A stretch of DNA of 64,000 nt from a virus. The stretch is taken from the IMG/VR virus record IMGVR_UViG_3300019751_000003, positions 1-64,000 of that record; one strand, 5' to 3'. The notes beneath the pieces were generated by a model. The model worked only from the letters and a program-made list of their open reading frames with translations, ran no database searches and was not told the origin of the DNA. A program made the position numbers and the translations under genes. Positions 2,562 through 40,700 of the stretch are shown here, piece after piece (position 1 is the first letter of the stretch; each line of letters starts with the position of its first letter).

Positions 2562-3005
2562 ATTGTGTATTAGTAACTCACCTACAAAGTAATTATGGTC
2601 TGGTTCTACTTCGATACTTATAAGTTCTATTGGTTTTTCAACTAATTTTACTGAAGTTATCTTTATTCCATTGAAAAATGGAGTAGTACCACATTTACAA
2701 TCACCACAACCACATGATTCGTTACCGACTGGTGAAACCCATTCACCATCTTTATATATTTTTATATCGACAGAAGTTTTTAGCTCAGTTCCGTCTGAAA
2801 GTTTAATTTGTAAGTAGGAATCGAGGGTTCTTTCCCATTTGGTTACAACCTTATTGTACCTAATGACTCCATTTTCAACATCATAACCTTTTATATAGTC
2901 ACCAAGTTCAATATTAGACAAATTGATTGGAACACCTTGTCTTTTATTTACTCTTCCTTTGATGTCTACTAAGGTATCTTTATGTAATCCATGTATATGT
3001 TCCAT
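1..3005 (-). CDS. Collagen-like tail fibre with N-terminal Hint-like domain (3' end outside window)
   Basis: An open frame starts at the ATG at 3005-3003 and stays open to the window edge, giving at least 1000 residues. An in-frame stop two codons upstream and the ribosome site AAAGGG fix this start. Residues 1-148 resemble a Hint (intein-fold) domain ending in [12 protein letters not shown] followed by Thr149. From about residue 150 the chain is Gly-X-Y-like (GPKG, GAQG, GDTG), with a GASPxG break roughly every 20 residues. Such chains form trimeric fibres in phages, so a tail fibre or fibre tip is inferred. It follows the 276-residue fibre gene by 10 bases. The C-terminus is not visible. 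Confidence 0.8.
2562..3005 (-). other. Degenerate Hint (intein-like) domain at the fibre N-terminus
   Basis: Residues 1-148 match the Hint fold: [15 protein letters not shown] near 32-46, a DGTELKTS strand near 71-78, and the C-terminal block [14 protein letters not shown] with His147-Asn148 before Thr149. Aligned with the intact copy at 32429-32839, Gly6 replaces the catalytic Cys1 and the block B His is Ile81. Only Asn-dependent C-terminal cleavage would remain possible. A Cys cluster (Cys98, 100, 103, 105) sits where larger inteins carry insertions. Whether it is active is unknown. Confidence 0.72.
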
Positions 3006-13497: not shown

Positions 13498-14652
13498 TTA
13501 TTTTATTAGTCCTGCTAACTTCTTAAATCTGTTAGCAACTTCGTTACCTTCAGAGATTATTGATTTGTTAGGTGCAGTACTTGCAGTTGGTTTAGAAGCG
13601 ATTCCTTCTTTAACAACAGTTTTCTTTTTTCTTGCAACATTTAAGTTTTCACCTAATGTAGCAAAAACAAGCTTAACTTCTCTTAAGTTTGCAGCTCTAT
13701 CAAAGTTCTCGATAACTTTAACTTTTTGTGACTCATTCAAATCAAAAGTTCTGAATAATTTGTTGGTGTAAAGTAGTTTAGCGTTTAAAAGATTAACTTC
13801 GTTGATAGTTCCTTTTAAAGATTCGATAGTAGCGTATGCTTCTTCCAACTCTTTATTTTCTTCTTCAACTTCTTCAGTCTCTTCAACTTCTTCTTCTTCG
13901 TTTACAACAGATTCTTCAACTTCTTCTTCGTTTTCATCTACTTCTTCTTCGTCCATGTCATGTGACATTTCTTTTAATGTCTCAATGATTTCGTCAATAT
14001 TTAACTCGTCATCGTTTTCCACTTCAGATGAATCACTAGCGTCATCAGATGGTTCAGCGTTTTCGCCGTCACCTAAATCAGATGAGTCAAGTTCTTCTTT
14101 TACTTCTTCTTCCTCTTCAACTTCTTCTTCGTTGATAGAAGCTTCTAATTCTTTGATTACAGATTCTAAATCAAGTTCGTCTTCATCGATATCTTCTTCG
14201 TCCATGTCATTCATTTCGTCTGCTGGCGCTTCTTCTTCTGCTTCTTCAGCAGCTTCTTCTTCGTCATGCATTTCGTCTTCATGTCCATCAACAACATCAG
14301 ATGCGATATCTTCGACCTCTTCTTTATCTTCTGAATCTAATTCCTCGTCAGCTACTTCCTCTTCAGATACTTCATCATCAGACTCGTCCATATCTTCGTT
14401 TTCGTCAGCTACTTCTTCACCTTCATAGGTTTCGTCAGCAACTTCCTCATCAGATGCCATTGCCATTTCGTCAGCAACTTCATCTTCTTCGATATCTTCT
14501 TCGTCTAATTCTTCAGCAATCTTATGAGATAACATTGATTGAAGTTTTGGAGTGAAGGCTTCTTCTAAGGCCATCTTTGCGTTTGCTAATGCAGTTTCTT
14601 TTACTGCTTTTGCGTCAGCGATAGCTTCTTTTAATAAATCAGATTTAGCCAT
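13498..14652 (-). CDS. 22: Acidic prohead scaffold / core protein, gp22-like, 384 aa
   Basis: Residues 45-270 are dominated by Glu and Asp, giving a strongly acidic rod-like region. The last ~110 residues (NEVNLLNAKLLYTNKLFRTFDLNESQKVKVIENFD) match the conserved end of T4-type gp22-like core proteins. The N-terminus MAKSDLLKE|AIADA and internal (V/I)xE sites suit digestion by gp21 during maturation. It sits between bS21 and the major capsid gene, the usual gp22-gp23 order. The low-complexity acid region is normal for phage scaffolds. A GGAGAG site lies 8 bases before ATG 14652. Confidence 0.88.
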   Translation of the reverse strand: MAKSDLLKEAIADAKAVKETALANAKMALEEAFTPKLQSMLSHKIAEELDEEDIEEDEVADEMAMASDEEVADETYEGEEVADENEDMDESDDEVSEEEVADEELDSEDKEEVEDIASDVVDGHEDEMHDEEEAAEEAEEEAPADEMNDMDEEDIDEDELDLESVIKELEASINEEEVEEEEEVKEELDSSDLGDGENAEPSDDASDSSEVENDDELNIDEIIETLKEMSHDMDEEEVDENEEEVEESVVNEEEEVEETEEVEEENKELEEAYATIESLKGTINEVNLLNAKLLYTNKLFRTFDLNESQKVKVIENFDRAANLREVKLVFATLGENLNVARKKKTVVKEGIASKPTASTAPNKSIISEGNEVANRFKKLAGLIK

Positions 14653-15133: not shown

Positions 15134-15763
15134 TTATTTGAAATCTTTATCAGATGCTAACTTAGCACTATCTTTTTTGTAGAAGTCAATTAATGTTTTT
15201 AATCGTCTAGCATCAATAGTTACTGATTCATTATTTTCTTTATCTTTTATAAGAAGCGTTGGTCGGTATTCAAATTGACTAACTGCAGATTTTATTTTAG
15301 CACTTCTAAAATATTTAATTACTTCTACAATTCTTTCCTTTGTGAATGGAACACCTTCAAGATAAAATAAACCAACTTGAGGACTGTAATGTGATGAGTA
15401 ATCTTCGTTTACTGATTCTTTAGATTCTAATAGGGTCTTTTTGAATTTCTTTGATAATGTAACTACTACTTTTAAAACATCCTTAAATGTTTTTGCATCT
15501 ACTTGAGCGTATTGCTTTGAACCATCTTCAATACTAACATTATATGGTTTGTCTTCATCTTCGTAATACCCAACAAATAATTGTGCATCACCATTTTCAA
15601 ATGCTGTAAATGTACTTGTACCTGTGTGGTATTCAACATCGTCCATGTTAACTTCAACATCACTACCAAGAACTTTACTCATTGCCTTTGCGATGATTTT
15701 TTTCTCACCATCTTTTAATGCTGGGTCAGCCTTTTCGTTTAATAAGTTTTTTAGTTTTATCAT
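15134..15763 (-). CDS. Putative head-internal protein with two gp21-type sites, 209 aa
   Basis: It starts MIKLKNLLNE|KADPAL, a short basic-hydrophobic leader ending in an LNE site, like T4 capsid-targeting leaders. A second site, ESVNE|DYSS, lies near residue 120 and divides it into two ~90-110-residue parts. The first part contains FENGDAQLFVGYYEDEDKPYNV; the second contains RIVEVIKYFRSAKIKSAVSQFEY. Neither is recognised. It is in a run of four genes with similar leaders between gp21 and bS21. Packaging in the capsid is inferred from leader and context only. Confidence 0.6.
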   Translation of the reverse strand: MIKLKNLLNEKADPALKDGEKKIIAKAMSKVLGSDVEVNMDDVEYHTGTSTFTAFENGDAQLFVGYYEDEDKPYNVSIEDGSKQYAQVDAKTFKDVLKVVVTLSKKFKKTLLESKESVNEDYSSHYSPQVGLFYLEGVPFTKERIVEVIKYFRSAKIKSAVSQFEYRPTLLIKDKENNESVTIDARRLKTLIDFYKKDSAKLASDKDFK

Positions 15764-16203: not shown

Positions 16204-16505
16204 TAGTCACCTCTCATTGCTTTTGCTAATGTTTTCAAGTGTTTCAATTCTTCTTTAGCACCTTTGTGTTTAGCATATCTATCTAAACCAAAAGACATCA
16301 TAATACCTATTGATAAATGTAATCTACCTTTTTTAGCATTTGGATATTTTCTACCATAAGGTGAAGAGTTAAACCAATCAATCATAGCTTGTGCCATTTC
16401 TTTTGATACTTTGATTCCTTCTACTCTATCAGTATTACCTTTTACAACTTGCTTTAATCCACCGATTGCTGATATTTCCGTTAGTATGTCTTTTAATTTA
16501 ATCAT
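16203..16505 (-). CDS. Small head-internal candidate with capsid-targeting-like leader, 100 aa
   Basis: MIKLKDILTE|ISAIGG at the start closely parallels the leaders of the 209- and 272-residue neighbours. The remaining 90 residues (MAQAMIDWFNSSPYGRKYPNAKKGRLHLSIGIMM) are basic with no known motif. The start ATG overlaps the preceding stop. Presence in the same block as gp21 and other leader-bearing genes suggests a packaged internal protein. Confidence 0.55.
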   Translation of the reverse strand: MIKLKDILTEISAIGGLKQVVKGNTDRVEGIKVSKEMAQAMIDWFNSSPYGRKYPNAKKGRLHLSIGIMMSFGLDRYAKHKGAKEELKHLKTLAKAMRGD

Positions 16506-17323
16506 TACTTTACCTTACCACTTCTTTCTAATTCTTGTGCTGCACCAATTACATAACTCAATGCAGTTGCAAGGTCTCTGTTCATATATTTAGCAATCTT
16601 TCTAACTGCCATCATTACGATTCTTTTTTCTTCAGTAGAGAATGATTCAACGATTGCTTTATTTTTTGGGTTAACTGAATCCATCATTTCTTTAGCAGAT
16701 ACTTTCATCTTCTTTAATTTAGATGATGGTAATTCGCCCAATCCAAATGACTCATTTAATAAACTTGTTAGTTTCATTGACTTAGATTCATTAGTAAATT
16801 CTTTTGCATTTTTTTTATCATCTTTGTCAACCGATTTTACAGGATATTTTTTTCCATCTACTTCGAACTCATCTTTGCCTTTAGCGATTGCTTTAGCTCT
16901 TTCAGCGCCGAATTCATTTCCTTCTTTAATTTCATAATATTTCGAAAGTACTTCACCGATTTCATCATAAGTAGACTCCATTCTTTGTTGTAGTGTGTGA
17001 ACTTCACTTAATGTTTTTTGAAAAACTTTAAATGACTCGTTCATTGATTTCATATGTCTGTTAACAGTAACTCTATCAAACCAATCACCCGTTTCTTCGA
17101 GTGTTACTTTGTTTGCATTCTCAACAATGTTCTTAATTGCGCCATATGTTTCCATAAGGTCACCATTACGATAAATTGTTTCACCAAATTTCTTATATGC
17201 AGATACGGCTTCAAGAAATGCTTTCTTTTCTTCTGAAGTCATTTTCTTTTCTTGCTCTTCTTCACCAATGTTTACTCTTTTGTAAGACTTTGATGATTCG
17301 TTAAGTAAATCTTTTAATTTCAT
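16505..17323 (-). CDS. Head-internal polyprotein candidate with two leader motifs, 272 aa
   Basis: It starts MKLKDLLNE|SSKSYK and carries a second copy of the leader inside, SMKLTSLLNE|SFGLGEL near residues 182-199. This looks like two leader-bearing genes fused. The N-terminal part (50-150) is a predicted coiled coil (KSMNESFKVFQKTLSEVHTL). The C-terminal part (EEKRIVMMAVRKIAKYMNRDLATALSYVIG) is helical. It directly follows gp21. Function is unknown; gp21 processing is inferred. Confidence 0.6.
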   Translation of the reverse strand: MKLKDLLNESSKSYKRVNIGEEEQEKKMTSEEKKAFLEAVSAYKKFGETIYRNGDLMETYGAIKNIVENANKVTLEETGDWFDRVTVNRHMKSMNESFKVFQKTLSEVHTLQQRMESTYDEIGEVLSKYYEIKEGNEFGAERAKAIAKGKDEFEVDGKKYPVKSVDKDDKKNAKEFTNESKSMKLTSLLNESFGLGELPSSKLKKMKVSAKEMMDSVNPKNKAIVESFSTEEKRIVMMAVRKIAKYMNRDLATALSYVIGAAQELERSGKVK

Positions 17324-17337
17324 AATATATCCCTAAT

Positions 17338-17970
17338 CTAAAAACATTCACAATAGCCACCAACTTCACAGATGATGTCTCTCATAATGTCTTGTGCTTT
17401 ATTATACTTATAAGTATCTTGTTTTCTACTAATACCTTCATTTATAACACCTTCATTCTTTGGCGACATAAATGCCCCATGAGTTGATGGGTTAGATACA
17501 AAGTCCCAACAAATTAATTCAAAGTCTTGTTCTACTGCAACAGTCCCATCTTCACTTATCTGTTTTACAGAACCCATACCTCTTGAAGAGATACCAACAG
17601 TACAACCTGCTTTTATAATTTCTTGTAATATTTTTCCTGATGGTGTATTTAGAATTTCTACTGTTCCGATTACATCATCACCTCTCCACTTTACATTTCT
17701 TACAATGTGTGAAGTGTTTTTTAATTCAACTACTGATGATTCTGGATGGTCTAATTCACCATACGCTCTATTCTCTGCGATTTCTTTTCCTAAGTACTTA
17801 GTAACTTCTCTTCTTAATATATCTTTTGGATATACTCGTCCATTTTGGTTTTTAGCGTTTGCTCTTTGTAAAACACCATCTACCAGAAATCTACCATGTT
17901 CAGATTTAGCCTCTGCCAACATAGTAGGAGTTACTTCAAATATCATTGTATCAATTAAAAGTGATTTCAT
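17338..17970 (-). CDS. 21: Prohead core protease, T4 gp21-like (S77 family), 210 aa
   Basis: Serine protease that cuts scaffold, capsid and internal proteins during head maturation. GELDHPESS gives catalytic His75 and VGISSRGMGSV gives the Ser (128/129), as in T4 gp21. AYGELDHP and FELICWDFVSNPSTHGA are typical of the family. LAE20|AKS near the N-terminus could be an autocleavage site. Location between portal-linked genes and scaffold is canonical. In T4 the enzyme cuts after Glu in Leu/Ile-X-Glu; the many LNE, VNE and INE motifs nearby suggest a relaxed first position here. Confidence 0.93.
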   Translation of the reverse strand: MKSLLIDTMIFEVTPTMLAEAKSEHGRFLVDGVLQRANAKNQNGRVYPKDILRREVTKYLGKEIAENRAYGELDHPESSVVELKNTSHIVRNVKWRGDDVIGTVEILNTPSGKILQEIIKAGCTVGISSRGMGSVKQISEDGTVAVEQDFELICWDFVSNPSTHGAFMSPKNEGVINEGISRKQDTYKYNKAQDIMRDIICEVGGYCECF

Positions 17971-21539: not shown

Positions 21540-23114
21540 TTATAACAACCAAGTTAAATCTTGGTCATTACCATGCTGGTCTTTCTGTTTCCAAGGGTCT
21601 ATTCCAAGGTTTCTATTGTTATAAGCACCTGGTTGATTCCTTTTTATGTGGGTTAATGTAGTTCTTGTTAAGTCCATACCTTGTTGTCTTAACTTCAATG
21701 CCGTATCTCTAACCCAAAGACCTGTTGAGAAAGATATTACTAAGTCATCATTATAACCTCGTTGAGCTTCTGCTCTACTACCATTCCATATGAAAACAAA
21801 CAACTCATCGATTAATCTTTTTGACCTAATCAATGGTGTTCTTTCTCTCATATAAGTATCTAATTTAGATATAACCAATGGACGAGTTCTACTTGTCATT
21901 GAGAACCCAGGAACCATATCGTCTTTTCTTTTTAAATCAAAACCTTTTCTAAGATGGATATCTTCATCGACATAACCTAAATCTCTGTATGAATAATATA
22001 GGTTTTGGTAGTTTCTGTCTATAACTTCTTGAATTACTGCCCAACCAATGTTTGCGTTTTCAATTACAAGTAATGCGTTGTTCCAATCAGTTGCAACCGA
22101 TGTTAAAAATGCACCATATTGTTTTGTTTCAATCTTACCTTTGTATTCAGCAACTTGTTCCACAGTTTCGACATCAAAGACATGAAACGCAGAATAGTCA
22201 GTAGAATCCCCACGAGCAACATCAGCCACAACAACATAATCACGAGAATAGTTAGGGTAATCCCATAACCAATAATTACCATCAAAACCTCTTTTTTCAA
22301 TAGGGTCTTTAACATGCGTCTCTTCATACCATTTTAATGTTGAACCTTCTACTACTGTATAACCAGAACTGATGAAATCACAATCACATTCTTGTGCTGC
22401 TCCTTTTTCACCAAGTAACTTTGTTTGTTGTTCTCTCCATGCTTCATCTCTTTCTGGATGAACACTCCAATGTAATTCTATCGGATTCCATTGTTCACCT
22501 GCTTGTCCTTGTAACCATATTTTGTGAAAAAAGTTACCGACACCATTTGGTGTAGATAATACGATTGCCCCACCACCAGTTGATAGTGTTGATTGTGCAG
22601 ATGTCCAAATTTCTTCTACATTATCGATAAACGCAGCTTCATCAATTACCAATAAAGATAATGCTTCAGAACGACCTGCGTCACCTGCAGCAGATGTTGC
22701 TTTTATCTGAGAACCATTTCTAAGTCTTAATGATAACTTGTTATCTTCCTCAGTATTACCTCTTAACCAAGATGGTAAGTTCTGATGCATGAATCTAACT
22801 TTAGTAACTAAGTTTTTTGCAACCTCTTGTTTAGTTGCAATTACTAATACATTTTTATCTTCATGAAATAACATAAGCCAGAGAGAATATCCGGCTGATA
22901 GTGTTGATATACCTAATTGTCGTGATTTAAGAATTACATTAAATCGATTGTCGGAAACTGCCGACATTAAGTCTTCTTGGAAGTCGTATAAATTAAAAAG
23001 AATTTTACCACGAGATGGGTGTTGAATATAACAATACTTTCTAAAAAAATATACGGGGTCTTTAGCACATTTTAAGTACTCTTCCTTTATGATTTGTTTG
23101 ATTGGCTTTTGCAT
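21540..23114 (-). CDS. 17: Terminase large subunit, T4 gp17-like, 524 aa
   Basis: Packaging motor ATPase and nuclease. SRQLGIST (64-71) is the variant Walker A of large terminases. LLVIDEA (154-160) is Walker B, followed by the LSTPNG coupling motif (186-191). The nuclease part starts at VVVADVARGDSTDYS with Asp298 and continues through IENANIGWAV to the C-terminal RGYNDDLVIS. Length is slightly shorter than T4 gp17. No gp16-like small subunit was recognised nearby. Confidence 0.95.
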   Translation of the reverse strand: MQKPIKQIIKEEYLKCAKDPVYFFRKYCYIQHPSRGKILFNLYDFQEDLMSAVSDNRFNVILKSRQLGISTLSAGYSLWLMLFHEDKNVLVIATKQEVAKNLVTKVRFMHQNLPSWLRGNTEEDNKLSLRLRNGSQIKATSAAGDAGRSEALSLLVIDEAAFIDNVEEIWTSAQSTLSTGGGAIVLSTPNGVGNFFHKIWLQGQAGEQWNPIELHWSVHPERDEAWREQQTKLLGEKGAAQECDCDFISSGYTVVEGSTLKWYEETHVKDPIEKRGFDGNYWLWDYPNYSRDYVVVADVARGDSTDYSAFHVFDVETVEQVAEYKGKIETKQYGAFLTSVATDWNNALLVIENANIGWAVIQEVIDRNYQNLYYSYRDLGYVDEDIHLRKGFDLKRKDDMVPGFSMTSRTRPLVISKLDTYMRERTPLIRSKRLIDELFVFIWNGSRAEAQRGYNDDLVISFSTGLWVRDTALKLRQQGMDLTRTTLTHIKRNQPGAYNNRNLGIDPWKQKDQHGNDQDLTWLL

Positions 23115-25254: not shown

Positions 25255-27279
25255 TTACCATTTTTTACAAGACCAATATCTTGCTTTATGTCTTGGTCCA
25301 GGATTATCACAATTGTGTCTTGCTCTAAATGCTTTTCTTCTTTCAGGATTATTTTTTTTGATAGACATTGTCTTTTCATTACCCTTACCTTTGTGACCAA
25401 AGTTTACTTTTACTACATTTCCTTTTGGATTCTTAACATAAACTTTAAACTTCTTTACATCACCTTGCATTATTTTACCAAGTTTGACATCCCTACCTTG
25501 ATACTCTGCTTCATTTATATCAGCTTTGTATTCTTTCATAAAGTTAATAAATTCCTTTATGTCTTGTTCATTTTCTACATCATATTCTTCTACTACTGAA
25601 AATCCTTCGTAGATAGATTTAAGATACTTTAAAAACTCTTTGTCTTTTCTCATGTCTTTAAAGTCTGCGTCTGAAAATACATTCTTGATAAAATCTTTTG
25701 CGTCTTTAGAATCTTGTCTGATTTGGTCGATTACTTTAAACATACCCTCGTTTACTGATTCCATCAATCCAATTGCAGTAGTACCAACAACTCTTTCAGC
25801 ACCATCTGCATATTTGTTGTTTAGAATTGCTATCTTTACCGGCTTGTCAATTATATACATTGGAAGTGGTGATGTACCAAATGAATATTTGATTCCATTC
25901 TTTTTTAATTCTTTACCAACATCCATAAATGATTTAGAATTTTTTACCATATCAGCAAGTTTATCTAAAATCACATCATGCTTACCTTCGTTTACTGATT
26001 CTTTTACAAATCCTTCTTTGAATAAAATTTTACCTGTTCTATCTTCAATTGCGATAGTTGCTCGTGGGTATCCACCTTGCATCATTCTAAATGCAGCTGG
26101 AACTGCCATTGGAGTTTTTACTAATTCTTGTTTTACAACCTTACCTAACATAGTTGCCACAATACTAACAGGATAACTTCCTTTTTTAGCTGCTTTATGT
26201 ATGATTGCAAGGCCTGTTGATTCATTTATTGATTCAAATAGTTCATCTCTTGTAAGTTTTCTACCAAAGGCCTTTTCAAATGCTTTAATCATTTTTACTT
26301 CGGTACTTGCATTTCTCCCAAGTAATTTTAAAACTCTTTTTAATTCTTCTTCAGAAAAATTATAGTTTACTTTTACTTCGTTTACTGATTCATCTATTGA
26401 TTCAGGTATCATATCTACAATTACGGCTGCCATATCACCTTTTGCTAAACTTACATTTCCGTCTCTATTGTAAAGATAGTATTTTACACCATTTGGATTT
26501 TTTGGATTTTTTAGAATAATTCTTTCTACTTGAGCTTTACCAACTTTAGTTTTTCCTTTGGTTACTACAAGTACTGTTTCATTATCTTTTCTAATTGCGT
26601 TACCAAACTTAATTCTAATCTTATCACCTTTTTTGAGTTTATCGTAAACTTTGAATTTTTTATTCTTATCCATAAATTTGGCTTCGTTTAGTGATTCATC
26701 TGCTTTCATTACATCATACATCTTACTATTTCTACCAACTGATACAAGAGTTAAACCTTTATGTTTCTTACTTAACTTAGCAAGTTCTTTTTTTGCTTTC
26801 TTTAAATCACCATCACCAGGACTATCACCACCATCTTTGTAATACATTTTATCGTAATCTTGTTTTTTTGCATCAAACTTATCTACGATTGTTAATATTT
26901 CATTTACTGATTCTTTTTTTACCTTTGCTACTTTAAATGCAACATTAACCATTTTAGGTAAAGAAAGTTTTCCGAAGTTTTTCTTGTTTGAATCATTGAT
27001 TGCATCATATACTGCAATTACTGCTGATGCTGAGAATGAATCAACTCTCATCTTTTTACCACTTACTGGGTCTTTGATTTTTGCGTTTTGTTTATTCTTA
27101 AGAATATCTCTTAATTGAGAAATTACCTCAGGTTCTTTAACTTCGTTTACAAATGATTTTGCATAGGGATTAGAAATCACTTTACCTAACTCAGGTGTGA
27201 ATCCATATTTGTATTCCATGAATGACTTAACATTTTGATATTCTTCTTTTATAATACTCTTAAGTTGTTTTTTATCCAT
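25255..27279 (-). CDS. Putative capsid-cargo polyprotein with eight (V/L/I)NE sites, 674 aa
   Basis: The chain is divided by repeated Ser/Phe/Asp-(V/L/I)-N-E motifs after residues 46, 127, 199, 301, 353, 431, 511 and 590, giving nine segments of 46-102 residues. Several of the motifs read ESVNEG or DESLNEA. They match the Leu/Ile-X-Glu rule of T4 gp21 with Val also allowed. Segments differ from each other; the last (591-674) ends in NPERRKAFRARHNCDNPGP and is a small basic Cys-containing domain I have seen in marine phage proteins. Basic segments suit DNA-associated internal head proteins. The neighbouring genes look like cargo too. A linker protein not cut at all remains possible. Confidence 0.6.
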   Translation of the reverse strand: MDKKQLKSIIKEEYQNVKSFMEYKYGFTPELGKVISNPYAKSFVNEVKEPEVISQLRDILKNKQNAKIKDPVSGKKMRVDSFSASAVIAVYDAINDSNKKNFGKLSLPKMVNVAFKVAKVKKESVNEILTIVDKFDAKKQDYDKMYYKDGGDSPGDGDLKKAKKELAKLSKKHKGLTLVSVGRNSKMYDVMKADESLNEAKFMDKNKKFKVYDKLKKGDKIRIKFGNAIRKDNETVLVVTKGKTKVGKAQVERIILKNPKNPNGVKYYLYNRDGNVSLAKGDMAAVIVDMIPESIDESVNEVKVNYNFSEEELKRVLKLLGRNASTEVKMIKAFEKAFGRKLTRDELFESINESTGLAIIHKAAKKGSYPVSIVATMLGKVVKQELVKTPMAVPAAFRMMQGGYPRATIAIEDRTGKILFKEGFVKESVNEGKHDVILDKLADMVKNSKSFMDVGKELKKNGIKYSFGTSPLPMYIIDKPVKIAILNNKYADGAERVVGTTAIGLMESVNEGMFKVIDQIRQDSKDAKDFIKNVFSDADFKDMRKDKEFLKYLKSIYEGFSVVEEYDVENEQDIKEFINFMKEYKADINEAEYQGRDVKLGKIMQGDVKKFKVYVKNPKGNVVKVNFGHKGKGNEKTMSIKKNNPERRKAFRARHNCDNPGPRHKARYWSCKKW
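25748..26913 (-). repeat. Dispersed ~15-bp repeat encoding the ESVNE motif
   Basis: TTCGTTTACTGATTC or near copies occur at about 25748, 25987, 26377, 26683 and 26903 within this gene and again at 15404-15418 in a head-core gene. Identical codon choice at separated sites suggests segments were duplicated or shuffled through these boundaries. Confidence 0.7.
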
Positions 27280-27287
27280 GATGTCCC

Positions 27288-28055
27288 TTAGTCTATTGTT
27301 TTTGGAAACTTAGTTTTCTTAGCCAAATCTAAAAGTTTTTTTAAGTCTTCAGGATTATTTCTGTTGAATTTATCTGCATTCTTTTTATTTTTGAAAATTG
27401 CTGATACTTTCTTTCCGTTATCATCAATCATAATGATAATACCATTTTTACCAACATGCCTTTCATCAAATACAGATACCTTTTCTTCAATAGTCTCTTC
27501 TACATTTTCTTTTGTAGTTCTCCAACCACCACCTGCGGCTTTATATTGTTTTGCCGCCCATGCGTTTGCGTATGCTGATGGATATACATCGAACTTCTTT
27601 TTAGCTTGTGATTTATAGTAAGACCATTTAGATGGATTTGTAGGAACATTCTTTTCAACAAGAACAGATAAGTTTTCTAATAATTTGTGTTCTTTATTTA
27701 GAGATTCATTTTTAAGGTCTTCAATTTTTGAACCAAGAGGTCTACCTATATACATTGATACAAAGAATCCAATTGCATCAAGAATGTCGTGTCCATCCCA
27801 CTTTGCGGCTGCGGCGATGTCCATTCCTTTAGACTCAAGATTATCTTCCCACTCTCTCTTACCAAAGTATTTTGCACCTTTAGCTTTTGGAAAAAGTTTA
27901 TCTACTTTTTTAGATGTACTATGAAAGTTTGCATCTGTTAATGCACCTTTTAAAATAAACATAATAGCGTGATGTGCTTCTGGTGAGGACGCACTTGTTC
28001 CTTTAAAATATGCGTCTAAATCTTTTTTTACTTTTTTATTTAATCTTGGATTCAT
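27288..28055 (-). CDS. Hypothetical protein with WSxxKSxAKKKF-YPSAYANAWA domain, 255 aa
   Basis: The middle (residues 138-180) holds PTNPSKWSYYKSQAKKKF and YPSAYANAWAAKQYKAAGG, a small conserved domain found in many aquatic phage and virus proteins whose function is unknown. LVE134|KNV just before it could be a gp21-type site. The N-terminal half (AHHAIMFILKGALTDANFHS) is separate, and the last 65 residues (KVSVFDERHVGKNGIIIMIDDNGKK) look like a third unit. It lies between other presumed cargo genes. Confidence 0.55.
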   Translation of the reverse strand: MNPRLNKKVKKDLDAYFKGTSASSPEAHHAIMFILKGALTDANFHSTSKKVDKLFPKAKGAKYFGKREWEDNLESKGMDIAAAAKWDGHDILDAIGFFVSMYIGRPLGSKIEDLKNESLNKEHKLLENLSVLVEKNVPTNPSKWSYYKSQAKKKFDVYPSAYANAWAAKQYKAAGGGWRTTKENVEETIEEKVSVFDERHVGKNGIIIMIDDNGKKVSAIFKNKKNADKFNRNNPEDLKKLLDLAKKTKFPKTID

Positions 28056-29085: not shown

Positions 29086-31731
29086 TTAATAGAAAAGGCC
29101 AAGGATTTGATTAAGAGGTGCGAATGTACCTGTTAACTTGTATGTACCACCTTTATATAGGAATACAATACCCTCGTTTGGTACTATCTTATCTCTTCCA
29201 CCAATACTCTTTAATCTTTCTAATTCCATTTTTAATTTTGTAATCTTTTTTGGGTCACCTGATTTCTGAACATCTTTGATTACTTTATCTAATTGTTTCT
29301 GAATATCACGAAGTGATTTATCAGGATTAACAGTAAGTGCTGATGACATAAATGAAAGTACTTCTGCACCAAGACCTAAAAATATATCTTCGAATGGTTT
29401 CATATTATTCTTAGCCATTTTCGAGTGGTCTATTTTATCTGTCTTGTTTGCCCAATCTCTTGTTTTAGAATCAGAAATGTTTTTCTTATCTAATCTAAAT
29501 GATTTATCATAAAACGCCCATCGTTTTACTAACCCCATTTTAGTTTTATTATCTAATGTGGTTGGTGAGTTTTTATCTACAAAATCACTCCACCATGCTT
29601 GATGGTAGTCTGCAACTCCATTAGAATCTTTTAGTTTAAATTCTTTTTGAAGTTTACTTACCTTCGATGAATAAATTGATTTCTTGTTTGATAAATCTTG
29701 ACTCCTCGGTATCTTAACAACTGGTGGTCCTTGGATAGTATAATTATCTTGAACATCGGCATTTACCTGCTTTATCATACCCGCTAATACTTTAGCGTCT
29801 GATGTATCAGCACCGATTGCTTTTCCATCTTCATTATATTCCATCGTTCCATGAAAGACTAATAGAGGTTGACCATATGGTATTACATTTACTGACTCCG
29901 GCCATATAACTTCAAGGTTCATAAATTTTGAGCCATCCTTGAATATTTTACTTCTTTGCGCATCGGAGAGTTTTGAAATGGCTGATTCTAAATCTCTCAT
30001 TGCGAAATTATACGCATCGGTCAACCCACCCCTATTAGCAAACTTATCGGCGACACCTTTGATGTCTAATGCGTTAAGTCCTCTGTCCTTGAGGTGTCCT
30101 TTATTTCTGGCAGCGATAATACCTCTATCTTTACGATATGATATAGCCAGAGCTTGTCCATCTGTTTTTTCTCTTGCAAATTCTAATGTACCTTCAAGAG
30201 CTTTTGATATGATTATTTTTAAATCACCAAATGTCAAATTTATTTCTGTATCGAATGGATGATTCATATGTCCATATGCTCCACCTTCCATAATCATACT
30301 TTCATTAAATATATTTTGTGTTCCTGCATTTCCAACATAGGACACAAAGTATAATCGTTGTTTACCAACTTTTTTAGAAAGTACTTGTCCTTCTTTACCT
30401 GAGTTGTCAAGTTCTTTTTTTGCATTATCAGGTTTTAAGTAAAAGTTTCTCTTTTGTTTCATTAAAGATGCTTTTTTACTTTTTGATTTCTTTTTTGGTT
30501 TTTTCTTTTCGTCAATGGTTGGTTCGTTATCATTTCCACACTCGTGACAGATATATAAGTCATCACCACCATCTTCTATTTTCCAACTATGGTCACATTC
30601 ATCACATTCAATCTTATCACCTACGATAGCTTCAAATCGTTTTAAATCTTCTTTTAGTGAAGCGGATTTACCTTGTTGTTTTTTTGTGAGGGTTTTAGGA
30701 GTAAGGTTATCTAAATCTTTTGGTTCAGCGAATTTAACAAATTCCATACCCAATCTCAATGCAACTTTCTTAATATGTTTTGCCCATTTCCTATAAGCAG
30801 GTCTACCAGTTATATCTTTACCATATCTCTTTTTCTGTCCATCCATAGTATCACCACTTGGAAAGAATGATACTTGATATCTACCAGGTCCATTTGGATA
30901 ATGGGTGTTAAACGATTCCATTGAGTCTTCGTCCATTAAGTAGTTTACAATATCCCAACCCAAGTCCCCAACAACTTCTTCCATCTCTGCTTTATAAGAT
31001 TTCATATTACCATAGAATGCACCTGGCCCATCATCTACAATACCTTTACCACTTGTTGGAATTTGTGAAGCTTCATTGATTAAACTATTAATGTTAATTG
31101 ATTGTAAAAAAGATTCCATTACGGATTCTACTGAGATTAATCTACCTGATACTAAGTTAAATATTTTTGGATTGAATTTACCATATACTTTTTTAAAGAA
31201 TGATTTTCTTTGAGAATCACTCCCTCTCGACATTCCCTTACGAACATCAGTTCCACTTATATTACCAAATGATGGTGATACATAAACATACCCTTTATCA
31301 TCGTACCCAGTATCAACACTTCCCTTTTTGTAAGGTAAGAAGTATTTTGAATAACCTGGACTTGTAAGTCTGCTTGCATCTTTTTTACCAACAACAGTAA
31401 TATATGCCGTTGTTTTAGATGGAAATTTTTCTATTACTTCTTTTGGTGAATATGGGTTTTTTACTTGAACAATTTTATTAGAAGGGATTTTAAACATCGT
31501 AGTCATAACTTCTCTTTTTTCTCTGAAGTTAAATGGATGTCTTGGTCCACCTTGTTTGTTTGATGTACCTATGAATACATTATTCTTACCAAACTTACTG
31601 ACAAGATGTTCGTAAACTTTTGCGTGTCCAGAATGGAAGGGTTGAAATCTACCTGAGTAAACTACTACCTCTTTTTTTATATCTTCACTCAGTATAGAGT
31701 CTACTACCCAATTTGTTAAAGTCTTTCCCAT
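29086..31731 (-). CDS. Cytidylyltransferase-like / zinc ribbon / KTDG-ligase fusion protein, 881 aa
   Basis: Residues 20-190 form an HxGH-type nucleotidyltransferase (VVVYSGRFQPFHSGHAKVY, His33-His36; ISGTDVR 158-164), like NMN adenylyl- or cytidylyl-transferases. Residues 376-398 are a Cys4 zinc ribbon (CDEC...CHEC). Residues 480-881 have covalent nucleotidyltransferase motifs of RNA/DNA ligases: KTDG (Lys522), FMNLEVI (603-609), EGIVFLY (853-859), TYKLTG (Lys865). Sites SLINE220|A and IFNE477|S separate the parts, and the leader ends SILSE|D. This looks like a gp21-processed cargo protein carrying two enzymes. Substrates are unknown; nucleic-acid repair or NAD-linked chemistry are options. 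Confidence 0.7.
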   Translation of the reverse strand: MGKTLTNWVVDSILSEDIKKEVVVYSGRFQPFHSGHAKVYEHLVSKFGKNNVFIGTSNKQGGPRHPFNFREKREVMTTMFKIPSNKIVQVKNPYSPKEVIEKFPSKTTAYITVVGKKDASRLTSPGYSKYFLPYKKGSVDTGYDDKGYVYVSPSFGNISGTDVRKGMSRGSDSQRKSFFKKVYGKFNPKIFNLVSGRLISVESVMESFLQSININSLINEASQIPTSGKGIVDDGPGAFYGNMKSYKAEMEEVVGDLGWDIVNYLMDEDSMESFNTHYPNGPGRYQVSFFPSGDTMDGQKKRYGKDITGRPAYRKWAKHIKKVALRLGMEFVKFAEPKDLDNLTPKTLTKKQQGKSASLKEDLKRFEAIVGDKIECDECDHSWKIEDGGDDLYICHECGNDNEPTIDEKKKPKKKSKSKKASLMKQKRNFYLKPDNAKKELDNSGKEGQVLSKKVGKQRLYFVSYVGNAGTQNIFNESMIMEGGAYGHMNHPFDTEINLTFGDLKIIISKALEGTLEFAREKTDGQALAISYRKDRGIIAARNKGHLKDRGLNALDIKGVADKFANRGGLTDAYNFAMRDLESAISKLSDAQRSKIFKDGSKFMNLEVIWPESVNVIPYGQPLLVFHGTMEYNEDGKAIGADTSDAKVLAGMIKQVNADVQDNYTIQGPPVVKIPRSQDLSNKKSIYSSKVSKLQKEFKLKDSNGVADYHQAWWSDFVDKNSPTTLDNKTKMGLVKRWAFYDKSFRLDKKNISDSKTRDWANKTDKIDHSKMAKNNMKPFEDIFLGLGAEVLSFMSSALTVNPDKSLRDIQKQLDKVIKDVQKSGDPKKITKLKMELERLKSIGGRDKIVPNEGIVFLYKGGTYKLTGTFAPLNQILGLFY

Positions 31732-31768: not shown

Positions 31769-34700
31769 TTATCCACAATACAAGTATCCATATACATTTT
31801 CCATTCTACCATTAGAATCCCATGAAGAGGATATCATACACTTTGCAACTGTATATGAGCTATGTGATTGTCTTTCTTCGTAAACTGGACTTGAACCACT
31901 AAATGAAGTTACCACCCACTCTGATGGTTGTTTCATTAGATAACCAGGCGTATCTGATGAACATAGTAAATCCCCTTTACTTACATCACCACCTTGGTTA
32001 CACAATTTAAAACCAGGCAAAACAAATGAACCTGATTCATCCTGCGTTACACTATCCCCAATAGAAGCCACTTTCCAAATTTCTTTAGAACCAGTTTGAC
32101 TTACAGGAATATAATCACCAAATGAATCTTTTCGTGATGCGGAGTAATATTCCTCAGGTGGGATAAGTTCGTCTGAATCACTTTCGTTATTTTTTCCTAA
32201 TGCAAATCCGTCAAATCTCGGAACTAAATTTAACTCAAGTTTTTCCCACAGAATTCCTACAACATTACTATCTTTTGCAGTTGTGACTTTTTGAAGTTCA
32301 TTATTTAGACCCAATTTAACTAAATCACCAGAATTAATATCTGATGTTATATCTTTTTTGTATTGGTGTCCAAGTGTTGTTTCAAATCCAGAAGGTGCAC
32401 CTGGCGAGGGTGATAATTTTGAAAGTGTGTTGTGTGAAAGTATTCCATTTGAAACATAGTTGTGAACTATATCTAATTCATAATTCCAAACTTCAACTTC
32501 TTCGTCAAAAGTTTCTACACTTTTTATTTTATCAATGAATATTTTTTCACCATCGACAACATATAACTCACCACCAATTCCAAGTTCATCTATTGCAATT
32601 TCAGAATTTGGATAATCGGGATGATATAGTAAATGTGAGTTAGAACATTTTAATTCTTTGTCTGATTCTGTTTTTATCAAACTCCACCCTTTAACTTTAT
32701 TAGTAGTAATTTCATCAATAGGTGACCATCCCCATTCTTTAGTTTCAAAGTTAAATACTTTTATTATATCATCGTCTTTGGTATCTTCTATATTTATCTC
32801 ACCTCTTTTAGTAATTACTTTAGTACCAGGTAATACACAACTATAACTTCCACCCGATGAAATCGCAGATGAAATAGAAGTCAATTCAGTATCAATATCA
32901 TCTTCAAGGTCTGTAAATCTTGTAGCAGCATTTTTAATAAGTCCATCAGCATCTACAAATCTTGGTACTTTTAGAATTAAACCAGTTGAGTCTACACCAA
33001 ACATGGTATTAAATGCTTTTGTTGTACTACCAGACTTGAAGGTTGCGGTATCTTCAAGAATTCCTTTAAATGTTGCAGTACCATCTTGTGCAATTTTAAA
33101 TTCAGGTGCTGAAATATATCCTGAAGAACCTAATGTAAAATCACCATAAGTATCATTTGCGGTTGCCGTTCCTTTTACTCCAATATGTGATGAACCAATT
33201 GTCCACCCACCAATAGAACCAGCTCCTGCGGTTACTGTACCATCAATGGATAATGTAGTTCCATCAAATTCAAGTTTTGGTGAACTTGTACCACCCATTT
33301 TAAATGTTCCTTTATCAAGACTTATTATAGAACCATTGGTAGTACTTAAATTGTTAGACCTAATTGTTCCTGTCTTAATTGAATCACCGCTAATTGTAGT
33401 AGAACCACCACCACCCGCGAACTCGGTAACTTTAATATAATCTATAAGTGTCTTACCTGCTTTATTAGAATAGTTTACAAGAATCATTGGTGCAAATGCG
33501 TTTGTTGTAGTCCAAACTTGACCTGGGTCATCAATGTTTGGGTGAAGGCCAGAAGTTTGGTAATATCCTGCAGTACCCTTAAAGTAACCTTTGTATATTA
33601 CCCATTCACCAACCGTTGGTTTTGCATTACTTGCAACAAAGTAGTGTTGAGAACCAAAATTACCTCCCGTACCAGTAGTATTACCTGCAGCATTAATTGC
33701 GGTAAGTTTCGTACTACCATCTGTATGTAATGAAGATGAGAATGCGGTTATACCTGCGTAAATTCCACCATCTCCTGAAGCTTCAGCTCTCTGTACTCTG
33801 ACTTCCATTTCATATAATGAGTTTGGATTAAATGGCATAACAGTATTTGAACTAAGCCAGGCCTGGTCGTCACTACCAGCATTATTACCAACTATAACTA
33901 CTGGCCCAAAGAATTGTCCGTAGTCTGTATCTGTAATTGAGTTGGCCGAAGTATTCGTTCCTGAATATAAATAAAATCCTACACCTGAACCATCTAATTT
34001 TGGATTATTTGATTGTTCTATATATGTGGGTCTTATTTCTCGTGTTGCTGGGTTAAAGTCTTCAAAGTATAATGCTTGTGGTTGATTTCTACCTACAAGT
34101 TCAACATCACCAGTAATTTTAATATTACCATTAGAACCACTAATCGATGTATTACCTCTACCAAAGAAAAATTCTTGTACTGCGAAGTCAACACCTGAAC
34201 CTGATATCAATAATGTTTTAGCCGTATTGTCCCATGCGAAATACCCTGCACCCAATGGACCTGAACCACTTCCTAAGTAGAAGTTACCATCATTATCCAT
34301 AAACGCGCTCATGTCATCGATTGTAGCTGCGGAAGTTAATGTATTATGATATCCAAGAACTTCACTATTCATTACCAACCCAGCTGGCGCAGGGAATGGA
34401 ACTGCGGATAATGTATCACCTAAGAAACTAAAGTCTTGATTGTCTGCACCTTGAGCACCTGTACTTCCTTTTGCACCTGTCGAACCTGCCGAACCTGCCG
34501 CACCCTTAGCACCTTGACCACCTTGAGCACCAGCACCACCTTGAGCACCCTTACCACCTTGAGCACCTGCCGAACCTTGTTTAGATTTAGCAAACGACAT
34601 AGTTTTTGCAATTATTACTTTTTGTGAACCACTACCACTAATTGCGTTAATTTCTAATGAACCAGAATCTTGTGTCAGACCCGTTATGGTAAAGTGATTA

Positions 34701-37700
34701 TGTCCGTTTGTTGTTGCGTTACCTGATGACCCACCTGCGGATTGTAGTTGACTAAATGAAACTCCATTTGAACCTGTACCTGCATACTTGTATGAATTAG
34801 TTTTATTGGTAATACCTTCAAATATAATCATATCAGTAATTGCACCATTCAATCCACCTGTTGCAATCGAACCTGCTGCGTTTGCAGGAATTGTATGTGA
34901 TTCATTTGTAAGGAACCCTGTTACCGCGTCAGAACCATCTGCACCTGGCGTTCCATCCGAACCACCTTCTACTTTAAATATTGTAATTGAATCAGATAAA
35001 TCACTTGCATTGTTTGCTACCTCAATTGTAATTGGAAATTGATTTTTATTGGTAACTTTCCCTGCTGCATTGGATGCACCATTGTCAAATGTTAATGTAA
35101 ATGTTTGAGTACCTGAACCATTTGTTATTGTACCACTCAATGCTGGGGTTGTAATAGGCCCACCACCACCTTTAGTAATTGTAATATCACCTGTATCAAT
35201 TGTATGTGCTAAGTTCTGTTGAACTACACTCATGGTAATTGTAGTAGGAGTTGCAGATGTATCACTTGAATCGTCAAATGCAAAAGTTTGAGAATCCGAA
35301 AGTAAAGTTAGTGACCTTGCCGTTGAACCATCCAAACCATCATCACCCTGTCTTGCTACTGCAACCGACATAGTTTTTGCAATTTGAGTACTTGAACTTA
35401 CTGCCGTTAATACAATAGAACCACTAAATGGTGAAGTTGTATTTGTAATGGTTACTGGATTAGTACCACTCGTTGTTATATGTGCTGATTTAGTAACAGA
35501 TATACTATAATCACTTGTACTATCAGTCACACCCTCAAATACTATCATCTCAGTACTTGCGCCTGCGAATGAAATAACTTCATCAGATGAACTTAATGGA
35601 AGTGTATGAGAATCGTTTGTTAAAAGCGCTGAAACTGCGGATGTACCATCTGAACCTGGCGAACCATCTGAACCACCTTCGACTTTAAATATTTTTACTG
35701 AATCAGTTAACCCATCTTTGGTACAAGAAATTTCAACAGGTAAAAATCCTTTAGTTTGTTGCATCCCACCTGCGGATTGTCCACCGACCCACTTTAAACT
35801 ACCACTTACAATACCAGTTCCATTTGAAACATCACTATTATCAAAAGCAAATCCCGTTACTACCGAACCACCATTTCTTGTAATTGTAATATCACTTGTT
35901 CCAATAGTACCTGTAAGATTTTGTTGTTGGAAACTAAATATAATATTAGATGGGGTTGCTGAAGTATCGGATGAATCATCGAAAGCAAATACAGGCGAAT
36001 CTAAACTACCAATTAGTAATTTAGCGGATGTACCAGGATTACCATCTGCACCTTGTTTAGTTCGTGTAAGTGACATTGTTTTAATCAATCGTGTACTTGA
36101 ACTAACTGCGTTAATTGTTAGTGACCCCGAATCAGCATTTAGGCCTGTTATACTAAAATGATTATGACCTGCCGTTGTTGCATTACCTGACGAACCACCT
36201 GCTGATTGTAAATGTGAAAATGTTGTTCCTGTCGATGCCGTAGCAGAGAATAAGTAATTAGATGATTTGTCTGTAACACCTTCGAATACTTTTACATCAG
36301 TTACACCACCTGCGAATGATGCAATACTACCACCAGAATCTGCAGGGAAGTTATGATTCTCGTTTGTTAAGAAAGCGGTAACTGCATCCGTTCCGTCTGT
36401 ACCAGATGTTCCACCTTCTACTTTAAATACTTTTATACTATCTGTAAATGTGTCTTTACTTACTTCAATTGTAATTGGTAAATGATTTTTAGATACGACT
36501 TTACCTGCCGCCGGACTTCCCCCATTTGCAAATAAAATACTACCACTTAATAAACCAGAACCATCACTTACATTACCACCTAATGATGGTGTTGTGATTG
36601 TTCCACCACCATTCTTAGTAATGGTAACATTACCTGTTGAAAGTGCCCCACTTAAATTTTGTTGATTGATAATAAACGATATTGAACTTGGTGTTGCAGT
36701 AGTATCTGCAGATGTATCAAAAGCGTAAACTTGAGAATCAACAGTAACTTGTAATGTTTTAGCATTAGAACCTGCGAGACCTGCAGTACCTTGTTTTGAT
36801 TTAACCAAGGACATTGTTTTTGCAAGTTGTGTACTTGAACTTACTGCAGTAATTACTACTGACCCACTATCGTGTCCTGCTGCTGATATTGTTAATACAT
36901 TTCCATTTGTACCACCCAATGTTGATGTTACTCCTAAACTACCTGTTCTACTATAAGAATAGTTTTCAGTTACATCTACAACACCTTCAAAAACAACCAT
37001 TTCTGAAGTTGCGTCATCAAAACTAACAACTGTTCCATCTGATTGTGCAGCGAAGGTATGTGCTTCATTGGTTAAGAATGCCGTTACTGCATCTTGACCA
37101 TCAGAACCTGGTGAACCATCTGAACCACCCTCTACCTTAAATAATTTTATTGTATCGGTTAATCCGTTTTTAGTTGCTGATATTGTAATTGGGAAATGTG
37201 ACTTAGTTCCTTCTATACCACCTGCATTTAGATTATTTCCAAACACAATACTACCACTTGCTATACCACTATACTTTCCATCAGTAGCACTTACATTGGT
37301 ATTATTGAAAGCAAAGTTTGTAATAGCATCATCACCTTGAGTTGTGATTGTAACATCACTACTTCCAATTGCGGCGTTTAAGTTTTGTTGGTTAAATGAG
37401 AATATAACATTTGCAGGTGTAGCTGAAGAATCACTTGAGTCGTCAAATGCCATCACTTGAGAATCTAAACTTGCTACTAATGTTTTAGCATTAGAACCTG
37501 CGAGTCCATCTGCACCTTTTGCACCTGCAGCACCTGCGGTTGATTTTGCAAGTGACATAGTTTTAACTAATTGAGTACTTGCACTAACTGCGGTTATTGT
37601 TAAAGAACCACTATCATGTCCCATTGAGGTTATACTAAATAAATTATCCCCAAAACCATGTCCATTTTGGGTATGGCCAAGTCCCACCGAACCTGTACCA

Positions 37701-40700
37701 CTAAATTTATAGTTTGATGTACTGTCGGTGATACCTTCAAAGACAACCATGTTAGTAACACCTTGAGTGAAGTCTGATATTGTTCCTGATGAGTTTGCAG
37801 GGAATGTATGTGATTCGTTAGTTAAGAATGCCGTTACTGCATCTTGACCATCTGTACCTGGCGTTCCGTCTGCACCACCTTGTACTTTAAATATTGTTGT
37901 ACTATCAGTTATATCATCTTTAGTAACCGATAGTGTTAATGGTAAATCAGTTTTATTTAATGACAATCCACTAAAAGATAAACTACCACTTTGTTGTCCT
38001 GACCCTGATACTATTCCCGAAGCCCCACCTAATGATGGTGTTGATATTGATGAACCACCTGCTTTAGTGATTGTGATATCACTTCCTGCGATTGTAGCTG
38101 ATAGGTTTTGTTGACTGATTGTAAAGTTAATTACATTCGGAGTTGCTGAAGTATCAGTAGAATCATCAAATGCGTACACCGATGAGTCGGTTGTTATTTG
38201 TAATGACTTTGCAGTTGCAGATTCCGTTACGGCGTTAATTGCTTCTTCTACTGATTGAAATCCACCGTCTGGTGCAGTTATTTGAATAGTACCTTTTACT
38301 ACTAAGTTAGTACCATCCCATGTAAATTTATCACCTAATGAGAATTTTGAATCTGAACCTAAAAAGAATCCTGTGTTTGTATTACCATGTGTTCCGACAC
38401 CTGTAAACAATTTGGAATCTTGCATTTTGATTCCACCAATAGAACCTGTGTTTGCTATTATACCACCTTGAAGGAATACATTATCAGTTGCCAATCCAAA
38501 TCCTGGATTTGAATTACCGAATACATAAGATGAGTTAGCCAACCCACTTAAGTCACCCAATCGAACTTTTAATCCAACATCATATAATCCACTACCCGTC
38601 CTTTCAACAATATCCATAAACGGAGTATTGGTGTCTCGTGGATTTGCATTCATTTTAATGTAACCACTACCACTCAGTCCAGTTGATACTATCACCTGAC
38701 CTTCATCGTATGGTTGAGCTGCTGATGCTAAATCACCAACAAAATCACCTTGTGACCCACTTCCATATCCTCTTGTTACATATAGTCTACCATGTACTTC
38801 GTCTGCGCCAGAATTATCACCATCAAGTGATGCCGAGTTTACTAAAATATATTCTGTTTGGAATCCTGTACTATCTACTTTTTTAGCTAATAGAATTTCA
38901 CCAACAGTAAACCCACTTGCATTCTTAACTGACATTGTTGTGTCATTTGCAGTAATGTTTGACCCTGTTAATGTTGTTGCGTTAGTAACCCATAGTTGAC
39001 CACCAACTGCGTTTACAGATTCTTTCTCAAATGTAGTTGTTCTTAGAGTACCTCTAATTCTTACATTTTCAAACTCTGCAGTTCCATTACCTTCTGAAGA
39101 TATTTTCCATCCTTTAAAATTACTTGCGAAATCTTTTGTCTGTAAAATACCTTCTGGTTTCATTATAAGATTACCACCCTCAATGGATGATGTTGTAATG
39201 TCCCATCCACCAATAGATGCCGATTGGAATATAGCAAATCCATCAGCGTCAATAGATGACGATGCGTTTTGTCTTGTAGAAGGGTTTCCACTAATTTGTG
39301 CAGGAGTACGAATGTTGTTTGCAGTAACTGCCCCTAAGATAGTTACACCATCTGTAATCGTACCACCTTCTATTAATACTTTTGATGCGGTTATATCACC
39401 TTGAGCTTTTAATCTTAATGAATTGTCTGATGACCTAATCTCATCTGAAACAACCTCAAATCCTGCAATAGATGCAGATGCGAATCTTGCAAAACCATCT
39501 TGGTCAATTGACGATGATGCGTTTGCTTTAGTTGATGGTGCACCATTAACTACGGCAGGAGTCCTAATTTGATTTACTGTAAGTGATGATTTTATTGTTG
39601 CGTTTGTACCAATTATCAATTGACCTGTGTTTGGGTCTAAGTGAAAGTCAGATGAACTAATTTCAATCTTACCATCCGAGCCACTCATAAATTGACTACC
39701 CGGCGTACCTATAAAAAACTTCTCTGCTTTTACATCTAATAAACCACTACCTGATGTTGTGAATATAAGGTGACTCTTATCATTCTCAGATACGAACTCA
39801 AATCCGACACCTTCCATTAAGTCACTACCAACTACCAAGTTACCACTACCAGAATATATTAAAAATCCACCTGGCCCTTTTCCTTCGGATGCGGATGTAA
39901 ATCCTTTATATCCAACAGACCTTAAGAATCCACTACTTGCTCCACCGATTTCAATACCACTACCTAATGCGTTTGATATAAAAATAGAACCTGTTATTAA
40001 AGAACCCTTACCACCAATAAAAGTAGTAGAACCTGGAAATACCACATCTTCTATTATAATGAAGGTTTCCGATGGTTCGTTTTTACTATTTAAGAATTCT
40101 ATTCTAATAGTCTTGGGGTCACCAATATGTTGAGATGGTATTGGTATTGTAAATATGAAGTCTGAACCATCAGTTGGTTCTATATATCGTGTTGTTGCAA
40201 TTGTTTCAAAATCAGTACCAAGTCCTTGTGATTTAACAGAGGTTCTTAGCAATTCAATTTTACCTGCAACTGGGTCGGCACTTGTGATTGTAAATGTAGA
40301 TACTGTTTGTAGGTTTTGTGATGTTCCTACCGATGCCGATGAAAAATATTCTATAAAAGTAGGAATGGTATCTGCGTCACTAAATCTGTACTGGTGTTCT
40401 TGACTACCTGTTATAGGGTCTTTTATTTGTAATATGTTACTACTTGATACACTTAAGATAGATGATGTAAAACTTGTTGGTTGTTCAACACCCGTTTGTC
40501 TTGGGAAAATAGTGGTCGATGATAAGTCTAATCTTACCTCACCACCAATCATCATACTATTAAATCCACTACCAGCCGTTTTGGTTAGAATTACATCATC
40601 ACCAAAAGTTGACCTTTGATACTTGACACTATGTGTATCTGTTGTTAATGTTAGGGTTGCGTTTCTACCCTGACCCAATTCATCTTCAGTTTCTTGATTT

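Follow-up and report, generated by a model that had tools for sequence, protein, structure and literature searches.

A phage gene built as a serial array of exchangeable small modules, probably a precursor polyprotein of head-internal proteins cut by a gp21-type protease

In phage T4, the prohead protease gp21 removes targeting (CTS) leaders of 10-19 residues from the internal proteins and also processes C-termini (PMC9026906; PMC9958956). Processing is decided by leader residues 8 and 10, at P3 and P1 (PMC9958956; PMC9026906), and the sites of gp21 end in Glu (PMC9026906); an aspartyl residue in place 10 of the leader prevents processing (PMC9026906). In the giant phage SPN3US, proteolysis trims eight proteins of their N-terminal propeptides and the protease of a C-terminal one (PMC10052503). 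The nearest concept to a modular phage polyprotein is the polyvalent protein (Iyer et al. 2017, PMC5512222). Polyvalent proteins are believed to reach the host early in infection and to be split up by proteolysis, and an embedded peptidase is frequent among them (PMC5512222). No earlier description of a phage polyprotein cut serially by the prohead protease was found in the open-licence literature.

The window, the stretch of 64,000 nucleotides analysed here, is part of the record of an uncultivated virus, 83,394 bases in length. It includes a T4-type head module, whose portal, capsid, PhoH-like and terminase proteins were recognised by inspection and by synteny with annotated phages. On its minus strand, the ORF at 25255-27279 (stop included) translates into a lysine-rich protein of 674 residues with a net charge of +45. 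This gene probably encodes a precursor polyprotein of head-internal proteins that would be cut by a gp21-type protease, its modules being swapped at the junctions. Its segments are as follows, with ↓ marking a predicted cut.

27142-27279, minus strand: S1, residues 1-46, the N-terminal segment ending KSFVNE↓; probable leader (propeptide)
26899-27141, minus strand: S2, residues 47-127, module ending ESVNE↓
26683-26898, minus strand: S3, residues 128-199, module ending ESLNE↓
26377-26682, minus strand: S4, residues 200-301, module ending ESVNE↓
26221-26376, minus strand: S5, residues 302-353, 52-residue module ending ESINE↓
25987-26220, minus strand: S6, residues 354-431, module ending ESVNE↓
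25747-25986, minus strand: S7, residues 432-511, module ending ESVNE↓
25510-25746, minus strand: S8, residues 512-590, module ending ADINE↓
25258-25509, minus strand: S9, residues 591-674, constant basic C-terminal domain with a net charge of +18; matches phrog_7595 (E=4.5e-8)

The initial annotation had read the protein as capsid cargo with eight (V/L/I)NE cleavage sites, and all eight are present at the residues it gave: FVNE46, SVNE127, SLNE199, SVNE301, SINE353, SVNE431, SVNE511, and DINE590. Only 0.60 such motifs are expected from composition. The proposed spacing into domain-sized pieces also holds, the shortest interval between sites being 46 residues; random placement reaches at least this value with P ~0.0006. 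Six of the eight sites have the form ES(V/L/I)NE. The looser T4 rule, [VLI]xE, gives 18 sites in the protein, several of which are second sites four residues ahead of an NE site (IDE↓SVNE, LFE↓SINE, VKE↓SVNE, LME↓SVNE). The motif is short, which would favour a chance occurrence or an annotation artefact, but none of 20,000 shuffles reached eight sites and the pattern recurs in dozens of relatives. This explanation is refuted by the comparative data and retains a vanishingly small probability.

Do the NE sites mark the borders of exchangeable units? A comparison set of about 130 related viral loci was assembled by searching with the whole protein, the protease, and two single segments. Many relatives encode proteins of 300-1,017 residues with between four and eight xNE sites, from ORFs located both at the homologous position and just downstream of the protease. 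Among the 36 protease loci that reach 12 kb, 29 have such an ORF; the part of the 83,394-base record that lies beyond the window showed no further polyprotein. When 46 polyproteins were split at xNE, the resulting 253 modules formed 42 families and 57 singletons, and a family could have up to eight distinct neighbour pairs.

The ends of homology between relatives were located in ORFs with at least two ES-x-NE joints, a restriction adopted because non-modular ORFs and the gradual decay of alignments blunted the first broad tests. At identities of 80% or more, 72% of homology ends lie no more than 8 residues from an NE site, compared with 17% for the null and 25% for a control motif. Module-sized indels with conserved flanks (21 distinct cases) had both edges within 3 residues of a site in 12 instances (null 2.5%), and three of the remaining nine lay within 4-8 residues. 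Alignments were built from collinear full-length relatives; a MAFFT alignment that combined full protein and module fragments put the latter in the wrong places and was not used.

All nine segments recur elsewhere; the relatives are mostly bounded by xNE or a related xxE, often beside different neighbours. S2 relatives follow S1 and end at ESVNE, and the modules that come next differ, while S3 has whole-module relatives in two loci (L026 and L031), both with the ESLNE end. Relatives of S4 with differing neighbours are found in loci L099-L108, and in L109 this module is a stand-alone gene behind the leader MKNYNDFLNE↓. Five polyproteins have copies of S5 that are 92-98% identical; every copy has NE at either end, and the partners differ. 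In another locus, L002, S6 is 100% identical and has other neighbours, and S7 is precisely missing. S7 itself has about 30 relatives in many contexts, with xNE or xTE before and after it in most, and S8 relatives lie directly ahead of the S9 domain in most loci. The reading of the 674-residue protein as a serial array of unrelated small modules bounded by NE sites is thus strongly supported by comparison between loci.

The two ends of the chain behave differently. S1 comes first in all eight polyproteins of its family (F7) and forms the N-terminus of short and long relatives, and S1-like sequence is also found inside the chain in more distant relatives; S9 has stand-alone relatives in other phages. 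Among polyproteins that contain them whole (families F7 and F1), S1 is always first and S9 always last, which suggests that S1 is probably a targeting leader rather than cargo and that S9 is a constant basic domain. The serial polyprotein of the initial annotation has therefore survived in part: the array of unrelated small modules, the NE boundaries, and the match with the phage's own probable protease sites stand, and residues 1-46 are more probably a leader than cargo, while residues 591-674 form a constant C-terminal domain.

Exchange of modules is also seen between close relatives. The window and contig IMGVR_UViG_3300048027_000247 (loci L018 and L005) are 95.6-98.5% identical over 7.3-33.3 kb, except at 25761-27001. 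This divergent stretch falls inside the polyprotein gene and breaks at junctions: in the contig S7 is absent, S6 is 98% and S4 78% alike, and S3 and S5 are replaced or missing. Similarly, loci L071 and L072 are ~98% identical over roughly 11 kb and 85% beyond, and their second polyprotein differs by one exact 180-bp (60-residue) module. In L071 this module is flanked by two copies of GAATCAGTAAACGAA; L072 has one such copy, with a single change, instead. Four contigs (L002-L005) have a common architecture, and misassembly is thus an unlikely cause. That modules turn over between strains this similar suggests that selection on them is strong, which is what one would expect of counter-defence proteins.

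The same data bear on a different role, in which the protein is a core (scaffold) component digested to fragments that leave the head, like T4 gp22, gp67, and gp68, and the modules are not cargo. T4 core proteins are indeed cut to small peptides (PMC9958956), and the scaffold of this phage also has four NE sites. However, the modules are 52-102 residues long, mutually unrelated, and swapped whole between strains; some of them are separate genes behind leaders, and a change of content between strains that are 98% identical is not expected of scaffolds. A scaffold role is, on balance, quite improbable.

Structure models bear only weakly on the division at NE sites. The AlphaFold model of the 674-residue protein is weak (mean pLDDT 46.5), with each of the eight NE sites inside or next to a region of low confidence and the better parts (51-110 and 371-390) between sites; residues 51-110, in the S2 region, form blocks with pLDDT of ~73-84 within this weak full-length model. 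The second polyprotein of L071 has a mean pLDDT of 48.4; its inserted module (373-432) stands out as a compact, confident fold, with 10-residue blocks of up to 82, and the values drop to 29 and 25 at its two sites. A structure search of PDB with the full-length model gave nothing significant (best E 0.57). Weak matches of this model to phage Dmd antitoxins (TM 0.53-0.61 on target, probability ~0.5, E>1) are no more than a lead, and their assignment to S6 (residues 364-423) is a guess.

What do the modules encode? Pfam and NCBIfam give no significant domain in the ORF, LPD14 being sub-threshold (E=0.18), and neither an embedded peptidase (MPTase) nor a known effector domain was found with these two collections. 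No family of IPI, IPII, IPIII, or Alt was matched in Pfam, PHROGs, NCBIfam, or a PDB sequence search, and almost no module is named by Pfam, PHROGs, NCBIfam, or PADLOC.

Which protease would cut such a chain? The candidate and its other probable substrates are encoded in the same window, together with further modular genes:

11815-13476, minus strand: major capsid protein, with sites LLNE9↓S and LVKE60↓A
13498-14652, minus strand: probable core/scaffold protein with four (V/I/L)NE sites
15134-15763, minus strand: third modular ORF, with the leader MIKLKNLLNE10↓ and an internal ESVNE120↓
16505-17323, minus strand: second modular ORF, adjoining the protease, with the leader MKLKDLLNE↓S and an internal fused leader MKLTSLLNE191↓S
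17338-17970, minus strand: gp21-type prohead protease (S77), with its own tail site VINE178↓G
27288-28055, minus strand: neighbouring gene whose C-terminal module (NPSKWSYYKSQAKKKFDVYPSAYANAW) lies within the polyprotein in L057, L072, and L102

The gp21 homologue named in the initial annotation is borne out by matches to Pfam Peptidase_S77 (PF03420, E=8.4e-32) and PHROG 207 (E=2e-50), and the capsid site LVKE60↓A, likewise proposed there, is present and conserved as LV(K/S)E↓A. Over 182 distinct contexts the junction consensus is E-S-V-N-E↓(A, G, or S), and Glu follows ESVN in 131 of 131 cases. A second hydrophobic-x-E occurs four residues upstream in 83 of 219 contexts, where ~7 are expected, and is possibly a redundant site. 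The hydrophobic-x-E rule also holds for the capsid site LV(K/S)E↓A, for VI(N/K)E↓G in the tail of the protease, and for leaders of the MKLKDLLNE↓S kind. This shared pattern, together with the T4 precedent, suggests that the polyprotein family fits a gp21 substrate, and the NE sites of the protein would agree with the specificity of the phage's gp21-type protease. The protein is tied to the capsid by gene order and shared motifs only.

Elsewhere in the window, the clearest (V/L/I)NE excess is found in the probable scaffold (four sites) and in ORF 15134-15763 (two sites). Single copies are notable for their position in head genes, one in the leader of the capsid protein (LLNE9↓S) and one in the protease tail (VINE178↓G). 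Short leaders ending in hydrophobic-x-Glu are clear in the neighbouring genes and in single-module relatives (MKLKDLLNE, MIKLKNLLNE, MKNYNDFLNE); the leader of the polyprotein is longer than these T4-like ones, ending at IIKE12 or FVNE46. In locus L034, the halves of ORF 16505-17323 are two adjacent genes, the second of which starts with MIKLKKLINE↓SFGLG at the place of the internal MKLTSLLNE↓SFGLG of the window, which points to a gene fusion that turned a leader into an internal site.

Other genes of the window were noted in passing. The terminase (21540-23114, minus strand) begins with MQKPIKQIIKEEYLK, similar to the polyprotein start, MDKKQLKSIIKEEYQNVK. A cytidylyltransferase/NMN-adenylyltransferase-like protein (29086-31731, minus strand) begins like a leader, with DSILSE↓D, and contains LINE220↓A as an internal site; for this reason it may be a packaged enzyme too. 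A probable tail fibre (3-3005, minus strand) is collagen-like (Gly-X-Y), and its N-terminus, of Hint/intein-type appearance, ends in LLIHNT just before the repeats; weak collagen and intein-splicing matches are also seen in ORF 31769-41263.

The junctions are conserved in DNA as well as in protein. Within the polyprotein gene, the 15-bp junction coding for ESVNE is found at four places, and a fifth copy lies in ORF 15134-15763:

25747-25761, minus strand: 15-bp ESVNE junction
25987-26001, minus strand: 15-bp ESVNE junction
26377-26391, minus strand: 15-bp ESVNE junction
26899-26913, minus strand: 15-bp ESVNE junction
15404-15418, minus strand: fifth copy, in ORF 15134-15763

Codon use at junctions is strongly biased compared with the same genes: Val is GTA in 97% versus 51%, Ser is never AGT versus 17%, and an identical 15-mer is present in 67 of 98 ESVNE joints. 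The resemblance between junction codons exceeds that between body codons (0.77 versus 0.57) when the paired modules share less than 60% identity. The codons are thus conserved beyond the protein level, and part of the motif conservation may be at the level of DNA. The simplest reading is that one sequence is used both as a protease site and as homology for recombination, but the joints could also owe their similar codons to recent common descent.

This codon signal would also suit an uncut multidomain protein, in which the ESVNE joints are DNA-level recombination seams or linkers and the likeness to protease sites, derived from gene fusions, is unused. Yet the exact 15-mer stands in the same reading frame in all 145 of its copies, and the variants SINE, SLNE, DINE, and VTE retain hydrophobic-x-E. 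The rule is also the one followed by the leaders, the capsid, and the protease tail of other genes, and the S4 boundary in distant phages retains hydrophobic-x-E with other P2 residues. An uncut protein is therefore considered unlikely.

On the preferred reading, that of a precursor polyprotein, the N-terminal segment would target the chain into the prohead core, where the gp21-type protease would cut after Glu at each (V/L/I)-N-E↓(A/G/S) junction. Cleavage would release about seven small, mostly basic, unrelated proteins inside the head, along with the constant basic C-terminal domain, and the released proteins would presumably be ejected with the DNA, as are the internal proteins of T4. Cleavage, packaging, ejection, and a cargo function of the modules are what we infer from these patterns. 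Modules would be gained, lost, and swapped by in-frame recombination at the junctions, where nearly the same 15-bp sequence recurs, so that the cargo list would differ from strain to strain. A bolder proposal, which we put forward tentatively, is that of a cassette array, in which one short sequence is the maturation-protease site in protein and the recombination seam in DNA. Modules between seams would be packaged, released, and injected, and strains would in this way change what they inject, probably to counter host defences, while keeping to one reading frame.

Related modules are found in the Kyanoviridae phages Melnitz, HTVC008M, and C48C1 (L095 9694-11082; L096 7151-8941; L098 10811-11932), with joints of the (I/L/M)DE-, LEE-, or KE-type and a modest motif excess. 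For example, Melnitz has a remote relative of S4 between EIDE↓ and DIKE↓, which indicates that hydrophobic-x-E is kept and P2 differs. It is possible that the Kyanoviridae joints represent a parallel system with another P2 residue; a search with a second Melnitz module returned Melnitz strains only. A cultured relative, Flavobacterium phage immuto, encodes gp192 (QQO91871.1), which contains seven xNE sites where 0.77 are expected; a search for virion proteomics of this phage found none.

If cleavage takes place, the locus points to a polyprotein strategy for head cargo in T4-like phages that is common among marine relatives. No tailed phage would so far be known to assemble a variable protein cargo by such a route. 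Cutting at hydrophobic-N-E would then be a simple rule for hundreds of uncharacterised, probably injected phage proteins in metagenomes, and the junctions suggest a route to packaging several foreign proteins in T4-like heads from one gene.

How does this arrangement compare with known systems? The mobile promoter-stem-loop cassettes (PeSL) of T4-type phages also use a repeated short sequence as a gene-shuffling seam, but the seam described here is part of a reading frame, in which it codes for a probable protease site. RNA-virus polyproteins likewise are series of proteins that a viral protease releases, and in this phage the serial units are delimited by sites that fit the presumed specificity of its own protease; there is no homology, and the present case is a dsDNA tailed phage whose modules are exchanged between strains. 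In head and inner-body proteins of the giant phages phiKZ, 201phi2-1, and SPN3US, a gp21-like protease cuts after Glu at a short motif, several times per protein; in SPN3US this serves propeptide removal, in contrast to the release of a module series proposed here. Polyvalent proteins resemble the nine segments in joining several disparate domains in one chain. They differ in that their enzyme domains can be recognised and a metallopeptidase is often embedded among them; neither feature was found in this protein, whose junctions fit a separate prohead protease. The internal head proteins of T4 (IPI, IPII, IPIII, and Alt) share with this locus a gp21-type S77 protease, encoded nearby here, leaders of ~10 residues ending in hydrophobic-x-E on neighbouring genes and single-module relatives (MKLKDLLNE, MKNYNDFLNE), and the character of small K-rich proteins. 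In T4 each protein has a separate gene and one leader, whereas here many are in one chain, with internal sites at which they are shuffled. Most likely, the locus is a T4-type internal-head-protein system rebuilt as a modular polyprotein, with a leader, a variable cargo middle, and a constant basic domain.
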